Shown here piece after piece: positions 16,635 to 45,167 of a stretch of 64,000 bases of DNA. The position numbers were made by a program, and so were the translations under genes. The stretch spans positions 1-64,000 of IMG/VR virus record IMGVR_UViG_3300025736_000014; one strand, written 5' to 3'. Each line of letters starts with the position of its first letter. The first letter of the stretch is position 1. Below the pieces are notes generated by a model. It did no database searches. It had not been told where the DNA came from and saw only the letters and a program-made list of their open reading frames with translations. The DNA is from a virus.

Positions 16635-16909
16635 AAATCTTCCAGTAATCTTACCATAGTTATCTCTGCTTTTGTAGGTGGTATTCCCCCCATCTTCCTA
16701 ATCACTATTTCTGCTATTTCTTTCTCACTATAAGCAAATCTTAACTCATCTCTGTTAAAATAGACTCTACCGCTACCCCTTCTTCTACCTTTTGAATAAA
16801 CAAAAGCAATTTCGTTCTTTTTTGGTTTGTCAAATATTGCCCACTCACCACCCTTAAGTTTTATTAATTCTTCCTTAATTAAATCTAGCGAGAACTTAAA
16901 TTCATCCAT
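16631..16909 (-). CDS. Hypothetical protein (92 aa) between glycosyltransferases
   Basis: Small protein with MDEFKFSLDLIKEEL at the N-terminus and a beta-rich middle (GEWAIFDKPKKNEIAFVYS). It overlaps both neighbours. A decayed copy of this gene remains at 17604-17655, which shows that it was once duplicated with the adjacent glycosyltransferase. Function unknown. Confidence 0.75.
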   Translation of the reverse strand: MDEFKFSLDLIKEELIKLKGGEWAIFDKPKKNEIAFVYSKGRRRGSGRVYFNRDELRFAYSEKEIAEIVIRKMGGIPPTKAEITMVRLLEDL

Positions 16910-17603
16910 AGCTTATTTTTTCCCTCCATCTAATTATTTCCTTTATGGTTTTATTCCTGTCTTCATAATGATTCTTGCGTTTATGATATAAGCCAATACC
17001 CTTCTCATCAAGTTCTATAGCCATATTTGGCAAAACAAAATTCTCAGCGTGTCCAAAATAAGTATTCCCCATAGACAACACAATGTCATCTTGAATCATA
17101 CCGTTTATATTCAAATCTATTTGAGTGGTAATCTGATGTGCGTGAACAAGCTTAGATCGTTTAAAGAATTGTAGTCTACCTAACACAATATCTACCATCG
17201 TTGGTGTATCAACATCTCTAACATCTTTCCCAGATGTGTACGGAGTGTCTATACTATTACCAATATTCTTACCATAAAAACCTAAAATAGCTTCTGGGAA
17301 TAATTGTGACTGTTCGATTAAATATTCAAGCGTATTAGGTTTAACTGTCAAATCATCATCTATAAATAAACAGTGTTCAGTTCCAGACAATAACCCAATT
17401 GAATGTCTAGCTACACAGCTAAAATTATGACTAGAGTTAATACAAATCTGGTTATCTAAATGAGGTTTAAGTTCTGTCTTCGGATCGTTATTCCAGACAA
17501 TTATCTTATCGGGTTTAACTGTTCCTTTGTCTAAATCTTCAATCAACCTAGTAACGTTTGATGCTCTCTCTGGCCAATAATGCAGAATAATTACTGAGAT
17601 CAT
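16902..17603 (-). CDS. Glycosyltransferase-like protein, tandem paralogue A (233 aa)
   Basis: GT-A type: MISVIILHYWPERASNVTRLI, IIVWNNDPKTEL and the acidic LFIDDDLTV motif near residue 87. It is clearly similar along its whole length to the next gene (for example both have HLDNQICINSSHNF and GTVKPD), so the two are recent tandem duplicates that have diverged, perhaps for successive sugar additions. Confidence 0.88.
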   Translation of the reverse strand: MISVIILHYWPERASNVTRLIEDLDKGTVKPDKIIVWNNDPKTELKPHLDNQICINSSHNFSCVARHSIGLLSGTEHCLFIDDDLTVKPNTLEYLIEQSQLFPEAILGFYGKNIGNSIDTPYTSGKDVRDVDTPTMVDIVLGRLQFFKRSKLVHAHQITTQIDLNINGMIQDDIVLSMGNTYFGHAENFVLPNMAIELDEKGIGLYHKRKNHYEDRNKTIKEIIRWREKISYG

Positions 17604-17655
17604 ACCATAGTTATCTCTGCTTTTTTAGAATTAATGAAAACTTAAATTCATCCAT
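17604..17655 (-). pseudogene. Remnant of a second copy of the 92-residue gene
   Basis: The 52 bases keep the first codons (MDEFKFSL) and the last codons (AEITMV region, AAAGCAGAGATAACTATGGTA) of the 92-residue gene, with the middle deleted and the frame ending after 14 codons. It lies at the matching position between the two paralogous glycosyltransferases, so it dates from the same duplication. Confidence 0.8.
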
Positions 17656-18346
17656 AACCCATCCTTCTACTCCATGCTAATATTCTCTTAAGAGACTTAT
17701 CCCTTCTTGGATAATGATTTTTAGTGTAGTGATAACCAACACCCTTCTCATCAAGTTCTATAACCCGATTTGGAAAAATATAATTACTCTCCATCTCAAA
17801 TATTTTATTAGCCATAGATAGCACAATATCTTCTTCAACAACTCTATTAATCAATAGATCGACCTCTGTCTCTAACTTAAAAGCGTTAGCAAGTTTTGTT
17901 CTTTTACAAAAGTGTATTCTACCTAAGACTATATCTACCTTTCTCATAATATCAACGTCTTTAATATCATGACCAGAAGTGTATGGATGATTTACATCTA
18001 GACCGATATCCTTACCATAAAATCCCAATATAGATTCTGGGAAGATTCCAGACTTTTTAACTAAAAACTCAAGCGTATCTCTTTTTACCGTCAAATCGTC
18101 ATCTATAAATAAACAGTGATCTGATTCAGAAATTAACCCAACAGCATACCTAACTAAACAGTGAAAATTGTGACTGGAGTTAATACAAATCTGATTGTCT
18201 AGATGAGCTTCTATCTTTGACTTTGGGTCGTTGTTCCAAACGATTATCCTGTCTGGTTTAACAGTGCCAGAATTTAAGTCTTTTATAATCCTGGCTATAT
18301 TACCAACTCTTTGTGGCCAATAATTAAGAATTACCGCAGAGATCAT
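17648..18346 (-). CDS. Glycosyltransferase-like protein, tandem paralogue B (232 aa)
   Basis: Close relative of the preceding gene: MISAVILNYWPQRVGNIARII, IIVWNNDPKS, LFIDDDLTV, FPESILGFYGKDIG and PYTSG all align. It overlaps the epimerase gene by 4 bases (ATGA). Donor and acceptor unknown. Confidence 0.88.
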   Translation of the reverse strand: MISAVILNYWPQRVGNIARIIKDLNSGTVKPDRIIVWNNDPKSKIEAHLDNQICINSSHNFHCLVRYAVGLISESDHCLFIDDDLTVKRDTLEFLVKKSGIFPESILGFYGKDIGLDVNHPYTSGHDIKDVDIMRKVDIVLGRIHFCKRTKLANAFKLETEVDLLINRVVEEDIVLSMANKIFEMESNYIFPNRVIELDEKGVGYHYTKNHYPRRDKSLKRILAWSRRMGYG

Positions 18347-41184: not shown

Positions 41185-41187
41185 GTG

Positions 41188-41262
41188 TCAGGATGACTGG
41201 ATTTGAACCAGTGATCTCATCGTCCCAAACGACGCGCGTTGGCCAGACTACGCTACACCCTG
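41188..41262 (-). tRNA. tRNA-Pro (TGG)
   Basis: Acceptor CAGGGTG/CATCCTG, T-arm ACTGG-TTCAAAT-CCAGT, anticodon loop TTTGGGA. Last tRNA of the array; no encoded CCA. Confidence 0.9.
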
Positions 41263-41289
41263 TTTTAGCTATTACTGTTGTTGTCTTTG

Positions 41290-41362
41290 CAAGAACGGTA
41301 AGAATCGAACTTACCCACGGGGATTTGGAGTCCCCATCGCCAGCCTTGGAACATTCGCTCTT
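41290..41362 (-). tRNA. tRNA-Trp (CCA anticodon)
   Basis: Acceptor AAGAGCG/CGTTCTT with one G-T pair, anticodon loop CTCCAAA in a GGGGA/TCCCC stem, discriminator G as in bacterial Trp tRNAs. Confidence 0.9.
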
Positions 41363-41368
41363 ATTTTG

Positions 41369-41450
41369 CGGAAGGTATAGGATTCGAACCTATGAACGGT
41401 TGCCCGTTACGGCTTAGCAAGCCGCTCCATTACCACTCTGGCAACCTTCC
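41369..41450 (-). tRNA. tRNA-Ser (GCT)
   Basis: Class II tRNA with a long variable arm (AACGG/CCGTT), acceptor GGAAGGT/ACCTTCC, anticodon loop TTGCTAA, discriminator G. Confidence 0.92.
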
Positions 41451-41458
41451 TAGTCAAT

Positions 41459-41512
41459 GGCGGAAGTTTACATAAGTTACGATAGGTTTGACAGCTCATG
41501 TCTGGTTCCGCC
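41459..41512 (-). other. 54-base stem-closed element between tRNAs
   Basis: Minus strand GGCGGAA ... TTCCGCC, a perfect 7-bp stem like an acceptor stem, closing 40 bases that contain a GACA/TGTC hairpin but no T-arm. Two more stems follow in the same spacer (GAGC/GCTC, and TGCTAC/GTAGCA around CCCCAA/TTGGGG at about 41536-41576). May be a processing signal or decayed tRNA. Confidence 0.4.
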
Positions 41513-41596
41513 GAGCGACTATAAGCTCTTAATTATATGCTACGCCCCAACCTATTGGGGTGTTTAAAGTAGCACATCTATCTTACTTTATTTTAG

Positions 41597-41670
41597 TACT
41601 CCTAGCAAGATTCGAACTTGCAACCTGCGGTTTCGAAGACCGACGCTCTTGTCCATTGAGCTATAGGAGC
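41597..41670 (-). tRNA. tRNA-Arg (TCG)
   Basis: Acceptor GCTCCTA/TAGGAGT, T-arm GCAAG-TTCGAAT-CTTGC, anticodon loop CTTCGAA; one mismatch at the base of the anticodon stem. Confidence 0.88.
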
Positions 41671-41674
41671 TTTG

Positions 41675-41747
41675 TGAGTCATATAGGTCTCGAACCTACG
41701 ACAACCTCGTTAAGAGCGAGGTGCTCTACCAACTGAGCTAATGACCC
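41675..41747 (-). tRNA. tRNA-Lys (CTT)
   Basis: Acceptor GGGTCAT/ATGACTC, anticodon loop CTCTTAA in a CCTCG/CGAGG stem. Confidence 0.9.
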
Positions 41748-41753
41748 ATTCTG

Positions 41754-41828
41754 TGAGTGCAGAGGGACTTGAACCCCCGACATTCTGCTTAAAAGGCAGA
41801 CGCTCTTGACCAACTGAGCTATGCACCC
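41754..41828 (-). tRNA. tRNA-Lys (TTT)
   Basis: Acceptor GGGTGCA/TGCACTC, anticodon loop CTTTTAA in a TCTGC/GCAGA stem. It ends three bases before the RNase P RNA. Confidence 0.92.
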
Positions 41829-41831
41829 GTT

Positions 41832-42101
41832 ATCAGAAAGTAATAAGCCAGATTCTGTTTTATGATGACATCTGTCTATGCCTTCGAACTTTAGACCTTG
41901 GTGGAACATCCTCAAACGGTCAATTCGGAAGTTGCTGCGACGGAGATTGCTCGTTTCACCATGCGACCTTCTAGTAGAAGGCGGCGTGCTCGTCTCTGTA
42001 GCTCTAATCAGCGGTTTTACCCGTCTTAGGATTTAACCTAAGCAGTCTGTTCCATGCAGTCTGGACTTTCCTCTTTTTCAAGCGTCATCTCGCTTTCTGA
42101 T
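41832..42101 (-). ncRNA. rnpB: RNase P RNA (rnpB), about 270 nt
   Basis: Catalytic RNA that removes 5' leaders from tRNA precursors. The ends pair perfectly (ATCAGAAAG/CTTTCTGAT, P1). P4 is intact: AAG-U-CCAGA within GAGGAAAGUCCAGA (42060-42068) pairs with UCUGG-CUU within ACAGAAUCUGGCUUAU (41845-41852), leaving the universal bulged U. Other conserved stretches are present in order: CUACAGAGACGAGCACG, AUGGUGAAACGAGCAAUC, ACCAAGGUCUAAA and AGAUGUCAUCAUAAAACAG. At 270 bases it is much shorter than the E. coli RNA (377). It lies between tRNA-Gln and tRNA-Lys, in the same transcript as its substrates. Confidence 0.95.
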
Positions 42102-42102
42102 G

Positions 42103-42175
42103 TTACCAAGGTAGGTCTCGAACCTACAATCTTGTGGCTCAGAACCACACGTGTTGCCGATTACACTACTTGGCA
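42103..42175 (-). tRNA. tRNA-Gln (CTG)
   Basis: Acceptor TGCCAAG/CTTGGTA, anticodon loop TTCTGAG in TGTGG/CCACA. Directly upstream of the RNase P RNA. Confidence 0.9.
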
Positions 42176-42176
42176 G

Positions 42177-42248
42177 TGCCTCCACAAAGAATCGAACTTT
42201 GATCCGCGACTTAGAAGGTCGCAATTCTGTCCGTTGAACTACAGAGGC
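42177..42248 (-). tRNA. tRNA-Arg (TCT)
   Basis: Acceptor GCCTCTG/TGGAGGC with two G-T pairs, anticodon loop CTTCTAA in GCGAC/GTCGC. Confidence 0.9.
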
Positions 42249-42252
42249 TTTG

Positions 42253-42325
42253 TACTCTCGATAGGAATCGAACCTATGTATGCCTGATTAGGAATCAGGT
42301 GCGTTGTCCCCTACGCTACGAGAGT
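42253..42325 (-). tRNA. tRNA-Arg (CCT)
   Basis: Acceptor ACTCTCG/CGAGAGT, anticodon loop TTCCTAA in CCTGA/TCAGG. Confidence 0.92.
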
Positions 42326-42331
42326 ATTTTG

Positions 42332-42403
42332 TTGGGGAGATAGGATTCGAACCTATAACCTACTCTGTATAAGAGAGTTGCTCAGCCATTGAGCTAATCC
42401 CCA
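42332..42403 (-). tRNA. tRNA-Ile (TAT)
   Basis: Anticodon loop CTTATAC in ACTCT/AGAGT; T-arm ATAGG-TTCGAAT-CCTAT. The acceptor stem starts T-A and has one mismatch at position 7-66. It reads ATA without needing lysidine. Confidence 0.85.
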
Positions 42404-42407
42404 ATTG

Positions 42408-42482
42408 TAGGCGATGAGGGATTTGAACCCCCGACGAACGGTATGTAACACCGCCACTCTGACCAGGCTGAGTTAATCGCCT
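42408..42482 (-). tRNA. tRNA-Val (TAC)
   Basis: Acceptor AGGCGAT/ATCGCCT, anticodon loop GTTACAT, T-loop TTCAAAT. It lies four bases downstream of the tmRNA. Confidence 0.88.
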
Positions 42483-42486
42483 ATTG

Positions 42487-42802
42487 TGGACTTGGTGGTA
42501 TTGAAACCACGTCCAGACTATTAATTTAACATCATCTACATGTTTAGTATCCTAATGGATGCGTAAGGTATATGACACCCTCATCAGCGTTTTTGATTTT
42601 AAGCTCAAATAGCAAAAGCGTAGTTTGCGTTGGTTGGTGAAAAAAACATGCCCACAAACGAAACGATTGTTTCTTTCACGTCCTCTTTAAGTTGGGCGAG
42701 GAAACCCCTAATTGTTTTTGCAATTATGTCTTTGGACCTTTAACGATGTGTCAATCGACATGCAGATATTAAACTTGTAATCTGTCGAAACTATACAAGC
42801 CC
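42487..42802 (-). ncRNA. ssrA: tmRNA (ssrA)
   Basis: Rescues stalled ribosomes by trans-translation. The tRNA-like domain is complete: acceptor GGGCTTG/CAAGTCC, discriminator A, 5' stretch TATAGTTTCGACAG like other tmRNAs, T-arm GTGGT-TTCAAT-ACCAC. P2 is extended: CAGA/TCTG, TTTAA/TTAAA and ATCTGCATG/CATGTAGAT with one G-T. The resume region ACATAATT-GCA sits at nucleotide 82, matching E. coli ACATAGTC-GCA at about 90. From this GCA a frame of 38 codons runs to TGA (42721-42605), starting AKTIRGFLAQ and ending NANYAFAI, like the NYALAA end of the E. coli tag. A later GCA gives a 7-residue ANYAFAI. CCA is not encoded. Confidence 0.92.
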
Positions 42803-42905
42803 ATATGCGGCTATAAACCATATCTTACGACTTAGATTTACGCCGTTAATTCCCCTCTTGAAACCCTTACGAGTGAACAGACGCTCTTTCGAGGTAGGGA
42901 CTGTG
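42803..42905. other. Spacer between tmRNA and tRNA-Ile (GAT)
   Basis: 103 bases with no reading frame and no recognisable tRNA. Short GGCGTAA and TTATAGCCG stretches could pair, perhaps a tmRNA leader. Nothing firmer can be said. Confidence 0.4.
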
Positions 42906-42977
42906 TAGATGAGATTGGATTCGAACCAATGATCTCCTCTGTATCAGAGAGGTACCTTACCGCTTGGCTACTCATCT
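42906..42977 (-). tRNA. tRNA-Ile (GAT)
   Basis: Acceptor AGATGAG/CTCATCT, T-arm ATTGG-TTCGAAT-CCAAT, anticodon loop CTGATAC in CCTCT/AGAGG. Confidence 0.92.
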
Positions 42978-43012
42978 GTAGCTGAGTATAACACGGATGT
43001 AATACTTCAGCA

Positions 43013-43089
43013 TGGTGCTACTTGAAAGATTCGAACTTTCACTACTCGGGTTTTGAATCCGATCCCTCTACCAGTTGGGGTAAAGTAGC
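43013..43089 (-). tRNA. tRNA-Leu (CAA) with short variable loop
   Basis: Acceptor GCTACTT/AAGTAGC, T-arm GAAAG-TTCGAAT-CTTTC, anticodon loop TTCAAAA, CCA encoded. The variable loop has only 5 bases, whereas bacterial Leu tRNAs are class II with a long arm. One A-C mismatch closes the anticodon loop. Confidence 0.8.
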
Positions 43090-43091
43090 AA

Positions 43092-43141
43092 ACGGGGCAC
43101 GTTCGGGATTCTTCGGAGTTCCTCAGATTCCCCATGCCCGT
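43092..43141 (-). other. 50-base stem-closed element between tRNAs
   Basis: Minus strand ACGGGCA ... TGCCCCGT with inner GGGGA/TCCC; no T-arm or anticodon arm. Same size class as the elements at 41459 and 45209. Confidence 0.35.
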
Positions 43142-43142
43142 G

Positions 43143-43216
43143 TGCTTCAAATAGGATTCGAACCTATACTGTGTCGGTTTTAAGCCGATTACCTCTACCA
43201 GTTGGGTTACTGAAGC
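43143..43216 (-). tRNA. tRNA-Leu (TAA) with short variable loop
   Basis: Acceptor GCTTCAG/TTGAAGC, T-arm ATAGG-TTCGAAT-CCTAT, anticodon loop CTTAAAA. Again only 5 variable-loop bases, like the Leu(CAA) gene; both share D-loop text AACTGGTAGAGG, so they are probably paralogues. Confidence 0.82.
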
Positions 43217-43218
43217 AT

Positions 43219-43291
43219 AGTAGCCTGTCTCCCAGCTTGTAGGCTACAAACCTACGCGTGGTTTCAAGAGTAAAAACTCTTTCAGACTACT
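43219..43291 (-). ncRNA. Unassigned tRNA-like RNA, 73 nt
   Basis: On the minus strand a 7-bp acceptor-like stem (AGTAGTC/GGCTACT), a D-arm-like hairpin (AAGAGT-TTTT-ACTCTT) and an anticodon-arm-like hairpin with a 7-base loop (AAACC-ACGCGTA-GGTTT) follow tRNA spacing exactly, but there is no TTC-type T-arm and position 33 is C. It may be a decayed tRNA or another folded RNA. Confidence 0.45.
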
Positions 43292-43295
43292 TGTG

Positions 43296-43377
43296 TGCCA
43301 AATATAGGATTCGAACCTACATACCTTACGGCACGAGTTTCTAAAACTCGCGTGTATACCTATTCCACCAATTTGGC
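43296..43377 (-). tRNA. tRNA-Leu (TAG)
   Basis: Class II with variable arm TGCC-GTAA-GGTA, acceptor GCCAAAT/ATTTGGC, anticodon loop TTTAGAA in CGAGT/ACTCG. The only Leu tRNA here with the expected long arm. Confidence 0.92.
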
Positions 43378-43378
43378 T

Positions 43379-43455
43379 TGGTGACGATAATGGGGATCGA
43401 ACCCATAGTCTCTGCCTTGAAAGGGAAGTGTGTTGGCCATTTACACTATATCGCC
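43379..43455 (-). tRNA. tRNA-Glu (TTC)
   Basis: Acceptor GGCGATA/TATCGTC, anticodon loop CTTTCAA, CCA encoded. Confidence 0.88.
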
Positions 43456-43461
43456 TTTTAG

Positions 43462-43532
43462 TAGCCCTGTAGGGAATCGAACCCTAGCCTGATGTCTGAG
43501 AAACATCTGTCCTGCCTCTAGACGACAGGGCC
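43462..43532 (-). tRNA. tRNA-Glu (CTC)
   Basis: Acceptor GGCCCTG/CAGGGCT, T-arm TAGGG-TTCGATT-CCCTA, anticodon loop TTCTCAG in GATGT/ACATC. Confidence 0.88.
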
Positions 43533-43534
43533 GT

Positions 43535-43604
43535 AGCGGAATCTGAGAATCGCACTCAGTTAAGACAGGTTATGAGCCTATCGAGATACTTACCTCCCAC
43601 CCGC
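43535..43604 (-). tRNA. tRNA-Met (CAT), first copy
   Basis: Anticodon loop CTCATAA in ATAGG/CCTGT; T-loop TGCGATT. Acceptor GCGGGTG/ATTCCGC has two mismatches at its inner end. Whether initiator, elongator or Ile2 is not clear. Confidence 0.75.
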
Positions 43605-43634
43605 TATATTTAACTGTCAAAGAACTTAAACGGG

Positions 43635-43719
43635 CGGAAGATGTAGGAGTTGAACCTACAAGACCTTGCGGTCGCTGTTTTCAAAACAGAGGCGGTGCCA
43701 ATTACGCGTGTAATCTTCC
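43635..43719 (-). tRNA. tRNA-Ser (TGA)
   Basis: Class II with variable arm GACC/GGTC, acceptor GGAAGAT/ATCTTCC, anticodon loop TTTGAAA, discriminator G. Confidence 0.9.
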
Positions 43720-43724
43720 ATGTG

Positions 43725-43808
43725 TGCTGATTCTAGGTAATGCTCCTAGGTTGGCGATTAGGCTACGGGTTTACAGTCCGCTCTCCCTCTTTAGAAGACT
43801 ACATCAGC
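43725..43808 (-). tRNA. tRNA-Tyr (GTA) with unusual T-loop
   Basis: Class II length (84), acceptor GCTGATG/AATCAGC with one mismatch, anticodon loop CTGTAAA. The T-stem CTAGG/CCTAG is perfect but the loop is AGCATTA and lacks TTC, so it may be poorly functional or specially modified. Confidence 0.72.
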
Positions 43809-43814
43809 TTTTTG

Positions 43815-43886
43815 TTACGGAACTAGGATTTGAACCTAGAATCTGAGGGGTCAAAGTCCTCCGTGTTGCCGTTACACTATTCCGTA
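43815..43886 (-). tRNA. tRNA-Gln (TTG)
   Basis: Acceptor TACGGAA/TTCCGTA, T-arm CTAGG-TTCAAAT-CCTAG, anticodon loop CTTTGAC; A-C mismatch closing the loop. Confidence 0.88.
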
Positions 43887-43891
43887 GTTTG

Positions 43892-43964
43892 TGCAAAGGA
43901 TTGGAATCGAACCAATATCTGATGTTTTTCAGACATCCGTCGTGACCAACTTGACTACCTTTAC
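43892..43964 (-). tRNA. tRNA-Phe (GAA)
   Basis: Acceptor GTAAAGG/CCTTTGC, anticodon loop CTGAAAA in GATGT/ACATC. Confidence 0.92.
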
Positions 43965-43969
43965 ATGTG

Positions 43970-44041
43970 AGACCTGTACTGGGATCGCACCAGTGCATAA
44001 CCGTTTTGCAAACAGCTGCGTTTCTCCTTCGCCAACAGGTC
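43970..44041 (-). tRNA. tRNA-Cys (GCA)
   Basis: Acceptor GACCTGT/ACAGGTC, anticodon loop TTGCAAA, discriminator T as in other Cys tRNAs; T-loop TGCGATC. Confidence 0.9.
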
Positions 44042-44045
44042 ATGG

Positions 44046-44081
44046 GGGAAGTAAAATACAATATATGTCATCTCACTTCCC
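44046..44081 (-). other. Short hairpin element between tRNAs
   Basis: GGGAAGT/ACTTCCC, a perfect 7-bp stem closing 22 A/T-rich bases; no tRNA arms. Confidence 0.35.
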
Positions 44082-44124
44082 AAGATCAATCCAGTAAGGC
44101 TTTAAAACCGAACCAGTTGATTTG

Positions 44125-44198
44125 TGGACAAGATGGGAATCGAACCCATCACAGTTTGCTTGCAAAGCAATCTCGCCAGCCTTGGTACATGCTCGCCC
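44125..44198 (-). tRNA. tRNA-Ala (TGC)
   Basis: Acceptor GGGCGAG/CTTGTCC, T-arm ATGGG-TTCGATT-CCCAT, anticodon loop TTTGCAA. The G-T pair at 3-70 is the Ala identity element. Confidence 0.9.
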
Positions 44199-44206
44199 AA
44201 TTTGTG

Positions 44207-44275
44207 TTGCGATAGTGGGAGTCGAACCTACTTGCAACTGATTATGATTCAGTGCCTCTACCCAAGATTATCGCA
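44207..44275 (-). tRNA. tRNA-Met (CAT), second copy
   Basis: Acceptor TGCGATA/TATCGCA, anticodon loop ATCATAA in ACTGA/TCAGT, short D-arm, one T-stem mismatch. Could be a Met or an Ile2 tRNA. Confidence 0.75.
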
Positions 44276-44280
44276 GTTTG

Positions 44281-44354
44281 CGGCTTGTACGGGATTTGAA
44301 CCCGTGATTTCTACCTTGACAGGGTAGTGTCATACCAGACTAGACTAACAAACC
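44281..44354 (-). tRNA. tRNA-Asp (GTC)
   Basis: Acceptor GGTTTGT/ACAAGCC, anticodon loop CTGTCAA in CTACC/GGTAG, discriminator G. Confidence 0.92.
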
Positions 44355-44360
44355 ATTCTG

Positions 44361-44431
44361 CACTCACGCTAGGATTCGAACCTAAATCTTCTCCTTAACA
44401 GGGAGTCGTTCTGCCGTTGAACTACACGAGT
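44361..44431 (-). tRNA. tRNA-Asn (GTT)
   Basis: Acceptor ACTCGTG/CGTGAGT, anticodon loop CTGTTAA, discriminator G. Confidence 0.9.
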
Positions 44432-44432
44432 A

Positions 44433-44508
44433 TGGAGCTATATGTTGGACTCGAACCAACCACCTTCTGATTACAAAACAGATGCTCTACCAGATGAGCT
44501 AATACAGC
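44433..44508 (-). tRNA. tRNA-Thr (TGT)
   Basis: Acceptor GCTGTAT/ATATAGC, anticodon loop TTTGTAA, discriminator T followed by an encoded CCA. Confidence 0.9.
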
Positions 44509-44509
44509 T

Positions 44510-44520
44510 TGGAGCAAGAT
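44510..44520 (-). other. Displaced 3' end of tRNA-Gly
   Basis: Minus strand ATCTTGCTCCA: the acceptor strand, discriminator and CCA of tRNA-Gly, left on the far side of the HNH gene. The intact tRNA-Gly at 45020 has ATCTTGCT but no encoded CCA. Confidence 0.8.
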
Positions 44521-44522
44521 AC

Positions 44523-44984
44523 TTATTCTTTCCAAGATTCTTGCCTTAACATAGTACCGATTGTACTATATGCTAATTTATATTTCTTTGCTAATCCCCT
44601 ATGAGTCAAACTATAATCTTTAGAATAATCTTCTCTAATTTTTCTTACTAATTTCCAAGTTAGTTTGTGACATCCTTGCTTTTCTCCAGTTGCTCTATTA
44701 CTTCTATTTGGCAATCTATGTCTTTTTTTCGACATAGCATCGGCAGTATTTTCTTTCATGCTACCGAGAAACAAGTGTTTCGGATTAACACAAAGTCTAT
44801 TATCACACTTATGACAGACAACTTTATTTTTAGGAATTTTTCCAAAGTGTAAATTCCAACTTAATCTATGAGAGTCAACAGTTTTACCATCTACCTTTAT
44901 ACAGCCATATCCAGTACCTCTATTGGCACCAGTCCATAACCAACAGGATTTAGTTTTATTAACTTTACTCCAAAATCTATCCAT
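44523..44984 (-). CDS. HNH homing endonuclease inserted in the tRNA array
   Basis: 153 residues, typical phage HNH enzyme: [20 protein letters not shown] at the start, [30 protein letters not shown] (HNH core with zinc ligands) and a C-terminal helix-turn-helix-like part ([21 protein letters not shown]) for target binding. It sits inside tRNA-Gly, with the tRNA 3' end repeated on its downstream side, the footprint of a mobile element targeting this tRNA. Confidence 0.95.
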
Positions 44985-45019
44985 AAATAAAATAAATTAT
45001 TTTATAAAAGTTAAATATG

Positions 45020-45090
45020 AGCAAGATAGGAGAATCGAACTCCTGTCAACTGATTGGAAATCAGTAGTTAAGCCACTTAACTAATCTTGC
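45020..45090 (-). tRNA. tRNA-Gly (TCC)
   Basis: Acceptor GCAAGAT/ATCTTGC, T-arm AGGAG-TTCGATT-CTCCT, anticodon loop TTTCCAA in ACTGA/TCAGT, discriminator T. The 3' flank was rebuilt by the HNH insertion. Confidence 0.92.
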
Positions 45091-45167
45091 TGGGGTAGTC
45101 GATGGGATTCGAACCCATGTGGGTCACTTCACAGGCAACCTTCTGAGACCTCTCGAATACGACCACC
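45091..45167 (-). tRNA. tRNA-His (GTG)
   Basis: Acceptor GTGGTCG/CGACTAC with the extra G(-1) opposite C73, the His identity pair; anticodon loop CTGTGAA; CCA encoded. First tRNA behind the promoter. Confidence 0.93.

Follow-up and report, generated by a model that had tools for sequence, protein, structure and literature searches.

How can a gene enter an array of tRNA genes that is almost devoid of spacers and leave the neighbouring tRNAs whole? Such an entry is rarely visible, and at the locus described here its scar is readable. The window analysed (64,000 nt, to which all coordinates refer unless stated otherwise) belongs to an uncultured virus record of 76,726 bp with phage genes, i.e., those for the large terminase (phrog_675), the portal and a Mu-F-like protein. 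It contains a dense tRNA array at 41187–45166, in which all tRNAs called by ARAGORN lie on the minus strand, and within this array a 507-bp unit with an HNH_3 ORF, also on the minus strand, separates tRNA-Gly from tRNA-Thr (Table 1). The reading that we favour, with a probability of about 0.6, is that a selfish, free-standing HNH_3 gene of homing-endonuclease type entered the Gly/Thr junction, with duplication of the end of tRNA-Gly.

Table 1. Features of the HNH_3 insert and of the adjoining tRNA genes, in the order of the minus strand
Feature	Position	Strand	Description	Source
tRNA-His(GTG)	45091–45166	−	CCA encoded; abuts tRNA-Gly with zero spacer	ARAGORN and reading of the tail
tRNA-Gly(TCC)	45019–45090	−	7-bp acceptor intact; tail T73-C-A-T, without CCA	ARAGORN
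Direct repeat, proximal copy, TATCTTGCTC	45019–45028	−	Final 10 nt of tRNA-Gly up to C74	
Leader, tRNA-Gly to HNH start codon	44985–45018	−	34 nt, 3% G+C	
HNH_3 endonuclease ORF	44523–44984	−	153 aa; HNH core and C-terminal tail, helix-turn-helix-like by eye	
Direct repeat, distal copy, TATCTTGCTC	44512–44521	−	Begins one base past the HNH stop codon	
Displaced tRNA-Gly 3′ end with CCA, ATCTTGCTCCA	44510–44520	−		
tRNA-Thr(TGT)	44433–44508	−	CCA encoded; starts one base past the displaced CCA	ARAGORN

Both edges of the unit carry TATCTTGCTC as an exact 10-bp direct repeat, which consists of the 3′ strand of the tRNA-Gly acceptor, base 73 and C74. The ORF nearly fills the insert, its stop codon being a single base away from the repeat; past the stop codon come this base, TATCTTGCTCCA-A and then tRNA-Thr, the same stretch from one base past the stop into tRNA-Thr being TATCTTGCTCCAA. 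The distal copy thus runs on as CA-A into tRNA-Thr, which completes the CCA. The initial annotation had described the far side of the HNH gene as a tRNA-Gly 3′ end with CCA, and the upstream tRNA-Gly as intact, with a matching acceptor strand and without CCA, and both descriptions proved accurate.

Short repeats do occur, and 0.5% of shuffled 60-nt flanks gave a match of at least 10 bases. However, the match within the 14-nt spacer has a chance of ~4 × 10−6 for a 10-mer, and its placement is precise with respect to both the tRNA end and the border of the following tRNA. The sequence ATCTTGCTC is absent elsewhere in the 76.7-kb record, and the inner 9-mer of the repeat has just two occurrences across the record. 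Among ~220 scorable tRNAs in 11 phage tRNA regions (the window, T5, T4, pSt2308, ZPAH1, phi-Grn1, CR9, Racecar, Mater, Aswh_1 and LR756511), tRNA-Gly alone has a 3′ end that recurs within 2 kb downstream, with zero other cases, and a ten-base similarity by chance is therefore scarcely credible.

The tRNA-Gly gene, the single Gly tRNA gene of the array by ARAGORN, scores 63.6 bits against the Rfam tRNA model and has a perfect acceptor stem (GCAAGAT/ATCTTGC), followed by T73 and CAT. Its missing CCA had been regarded as a scar of the insertion, a view that is not supported because most tRNAs of the array are without CCA: it is encoded by 4 of the 26, and the majority tail is N73-CA (confirmed with Infernal coordinates), so that its absence is normal here. 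An indication of the original arrangement comes from in-silico removal of 507 bp (the insert and one repeat), which yields ...CTCCTATCTTGCTC/CAAGCTGTATTAG..., i.e., a site of the form His-CCA-Gly-CCA-A-Thr-CCA, whose spacing matches that of the neighbouring tRNAs. Since the rebuilt junction shares its layout with the junctions His-CCA/Gly and Thr-CCA-T/Asn, which are spaced by 0–1 nt, the CCA-bearing side is likely the old end of tRNA-Gly. In the leader a weak hairpin is possible at 44987–45005, with a fold z of −1.57, which is not significant.

Several further observations concern the array as such. C74 is encoded in practically all of its tRNA genes (41187–45166, minus strand), though most are without the full CCA, and it is also retained in other CCA-less phage arrays, mostly as CT in LR756511 and mostly as CT or CG in Streptomyces and Arthrobacter phages. 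Likely tRNAs missed by ARAGORN were recognised by eye on the minus strand, namely a Met-like one at ~43533–43610 and a Ser-like and a Tyr-like one at ~43637–43812, and a further likely tRNA at 44207–44275 (minus strand), also without an ARAGORN call, scores just at the Rfam threshold. ARAGORN also missed a tmRNA at 42484–42802 on the minus strand (RF00023, 98.8 bits, E = 2.2 × 10−37). Between tRNA-Gln(CTG) and tRNA-Lys(TTT) lies a compact RNase P RNA of 274 nt at 41828–42101 on the minus strand (RF00010, 100.8 bits vs. a gathering cutoff of 100, E = 1.3 × 10−29), which is also carried by a sibling contig from another metagenome and has zero DNA matches among GenBank phages. In the literature searched, no phage was described as encoding an RNase P RNA, which is not proof of absence, and this RNA is possibly the most unusual feature of the window. 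Neither a CCA-adding enzyme (PF01743) nor the RNase P protein (PF00825) was found in the record, which is itself a fragment. Elsewhere in the window, tandem paralogous genes at 16902–17603 and 17648–18346 (minus strand) share 58% amino-acid identity.

The protein encoded by the insert is assigned to the HNH_3 endonucleases because it scores above the Pfam gathering cutoff (PF13392, 51.9 bits vs. 24.8, E = 5.8 × 10−14) and has the HNH core, in which H58, C60, D61, C65 and H70 are invariant in an alignment of 8 homologues (alignment A1). It also matches phrog_1872 (E = 4.6 × 10−32) and related HNH groups, and solved structures were matched weakly, with I-PpoI as the best plausible hit at a non-significant E of 0.08. 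The ORF lies outside any intron or intein, between a complete tRNA-Gly and a complete tRNA-Thr, and is in this sense free-standing. Its G+C content of 32% is at the bottom of the range of the phage's own genes (32–41%).

In the proposed mechanism, the HNH_3 gene would have entered the tRNA-Gly/tRNA-Thr junction in a nearly spacer-free part of the array, and the present 507-bp unit would correspond to the leader, the ORF with its stop codon, one base and one 10-bp copy. The duplication would most simply have arisen from fill-in of a staggered break, or from overlapping repair ends, at C74/C75. As the genes here are spaced by 0–1 nt, the loss of any base upon insertion would break a tRNA, both tRNAs would stay whole only if an edge was duplicated, and selection would have retained the one that duplicated the edge of tRNA-Gly. 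Two copies of the tRNA-Gly end now flank the HNH gene, suggesting that the tRNA stayed usable after the insertion. The new tRNA-Gly, whose tail T73-CA-T is like that of most tRNAs in the array, would gain its CCA post-transcriptionally, and the HNH mRNA may be freed by the processing of tRNA ends, i.e., by 3′ trimming after Gly and by RNase P before Thr. The insert now splits the old junction in two, and if this junction is what the enzyme recognises, the carrier would thereby be protected.

No empty-site relative was found in IMG/VR or among GenBank phages, and the order of events is therefore what we infer. Exact searches of IMG/VR with a 24-mer from tRNA-Gly (T-arm and acceptor) and with a 21-mer of the His-Gly junction gave no empty site, and a 17-mer specific to the rejoined site occurred in two contigs, both without tRNAs and taken as chance matches. 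Relatives sought through the terminase and the adjoining exonuclease gene came to only three IMG/VR contigs of the same lineage, none of which extends across the junction; the only long sibling contig (G002) starts at window position 44275, short of the junction, and is 100% identical where the two overlap. GenBank phages showed similarity only to single tRNAs of the array. T5 hegC against its relatives (NBSal005) and ZPAH1 against Aswh_1 were tried as model empty sites and rejected, as both are gene swaps rather than clean insertions. In a relative of 75–78% identity (L018, 6896–12590), both the terminase gene and the portal gene contain ~1 kb of interrupting extra DNA, possibly introns or inteins. 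The earlier proposal that the insertion kept the tRNA by repeating its end is partly supported, the rebuilt site, its spacing and the intact stem making insertion with duplication the simplest reading, whereas the direction of the insertion is presumed from this anatomy.

Random illegitimate recombination could also have placed the HNH gene here, in which case the enzyme would have no role in the choice of site and the duplicated end would be a by-product of repair, kept by selection for tRNA-Gly. Phages commonly carry homologues of the HNH protein (1635 GenBank records), and these mostly lie away from tRNAs: a tRNA was close by at 1 of 94 IMG/VR viral loci (within 800 bp) and at 2 of 80 genome loci. 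In Kayfunavirus HC13 and Vec13, where the empty sites are readable, the HNH genes took the place of spacer (~37 and ~15 bp) and made no duplication. Free-standing phage homing endonucleases, moreover, are reported to cleave DNA at distances of hundreds to thousands of bp from the genes that encode them (PMC2988022), so that the insertion point need not equal the cut site. While these points favour a random event, the ORF fills its insert as expected of a gene-sized mobile unit, and we consider random placement unlikely, though well worth keeping in view. Alternatively, a second tRNA-Gly may once have stood in tandem with the first, the HNH gene having taken the place of its body and left the CCA-bearing piece, given that modular swaps between tRNAs are common (ZPAH1 vs. 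Aswh_1; T5 hegC vs. NBSal005) and that replacement is seen in Kayfunavirus as well. However, the match breaks off a single base short of the acceptor 3′ strand, the array holds one Gly gene, and 0 of 10 isoacceptor pairs in the array share more than 4 of 7 acceptor bases, which makes a different Gly isoacceptor an unlikely donor and would call for a recent exact tandem copy. A tandem origin is thus improbable.

The initial annotation had also likened the insert to elements that target tRNA genes. Where such genes hold attachment cores, these cover the tRNA 3′ end, and an integrase-type element with that end as its attachment site, restored upon integration, would agree with the geometry, as the identity block spans the tRNA 3′ end. 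A recombinase is absent, however, the 507-bp insert holding the HNH_3 ORF only, and the identity block is merely 10 bp long, which leaves this origin very improbable. The broader likeness is not supported either, given the scarcity of homologues near tRNAs noted above; a duplicated tRNA end was seen neither at the related locus L152 nor in ten comparison arrays. The HNH family does not habitually duplicate its target, because the Kayfunavirus, T5 hegC, T4 SegB, ZPAH1 and L152 cases are without a duplicated end. Around 93 HNH loci, shared flanking 8-mers were in mild excess, 12 seen vs. ~4 expected, from shuffles that did not preserve dinucleotides; at one of the loci (L002), the shared 8-mer sits in stretches that by eye resemble promoter-type sequence.

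A bolder version of the favoured reading assigns the duplication to the gene itself: the HNH enzyme would recognise the Gly/Thr junction and cut it with a wide stagger, and the gene would carry a spare tRNA 3′ end with which the broken tRNA is rebuilt at each insertion, giving cost-free entry into tRNA genes and an mRNA excised by the tRNA-processing enzymes. We regard this version as doubtful. If the duplication should prove reproducible, it would reveal one way for a selfish gene to reside in tRNA arrays without doing harm; were it a single accident, the locus would still illustrate cleanly how selection preserves a tRNA.

Homing-type genes in phage tRNA clusters are already known, and we compare the insertion favoured here with several of them. 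In T4, the SegB gene lies between tRNA-Arg and tRNA-Ile (PMC2988022), and its cleavage sites fall in the tRNA region (PMC2988022, PMC13096335); SegB of T4 and T6 shows that homing endonucleases do cut inside tRNA regions (PMC13096335). The T4 gene is thus similar to the present one in its place between two tRNA genes of a cluster and in its tRNA orientation, whereas its product is a GIY-YIG rather than an HNH enzyme, and the T4 locus (L108) is without a duplicated tRNA 3′ end. The HNH genes hegC (F-TflI) and hegD (F-TflII) of T5 likewise lie inside a tRNA array, codirectional with and abutting tRNAs, but their annotated 3′ ends overlap the next tRNA gene, acceptor duplication is absent, and relatives hold other sequence at the position of hegC. 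The HNH gene in the tRNA array of ZPAH1 is also without a duplicated acceptor. At L152 (MAG contig NGFH01000003.1), an HNH_3 gene whose product is 39% identical is flanked by tRNA-His and tRNA-Arg in an array, but with spacer on both sides and without a repeat of the tRNA-His 3′ end; this gene is at 1221–1900 of a contig that was binned with a Bacteroidetes genome and may be phage, and several tRNAs of its array are also without CCA. Kayfunavirus HC13 and Vec13 resemble the present locus in that homologous HNH proteins are inserted between phage genes, and differ from it in that spacer was replaced and the target not duplicated. The place of the gene within a tRNA cluster therefore has precedents, whereas the duplicated tRNA end sets this locus apart from the comparison cases checked.
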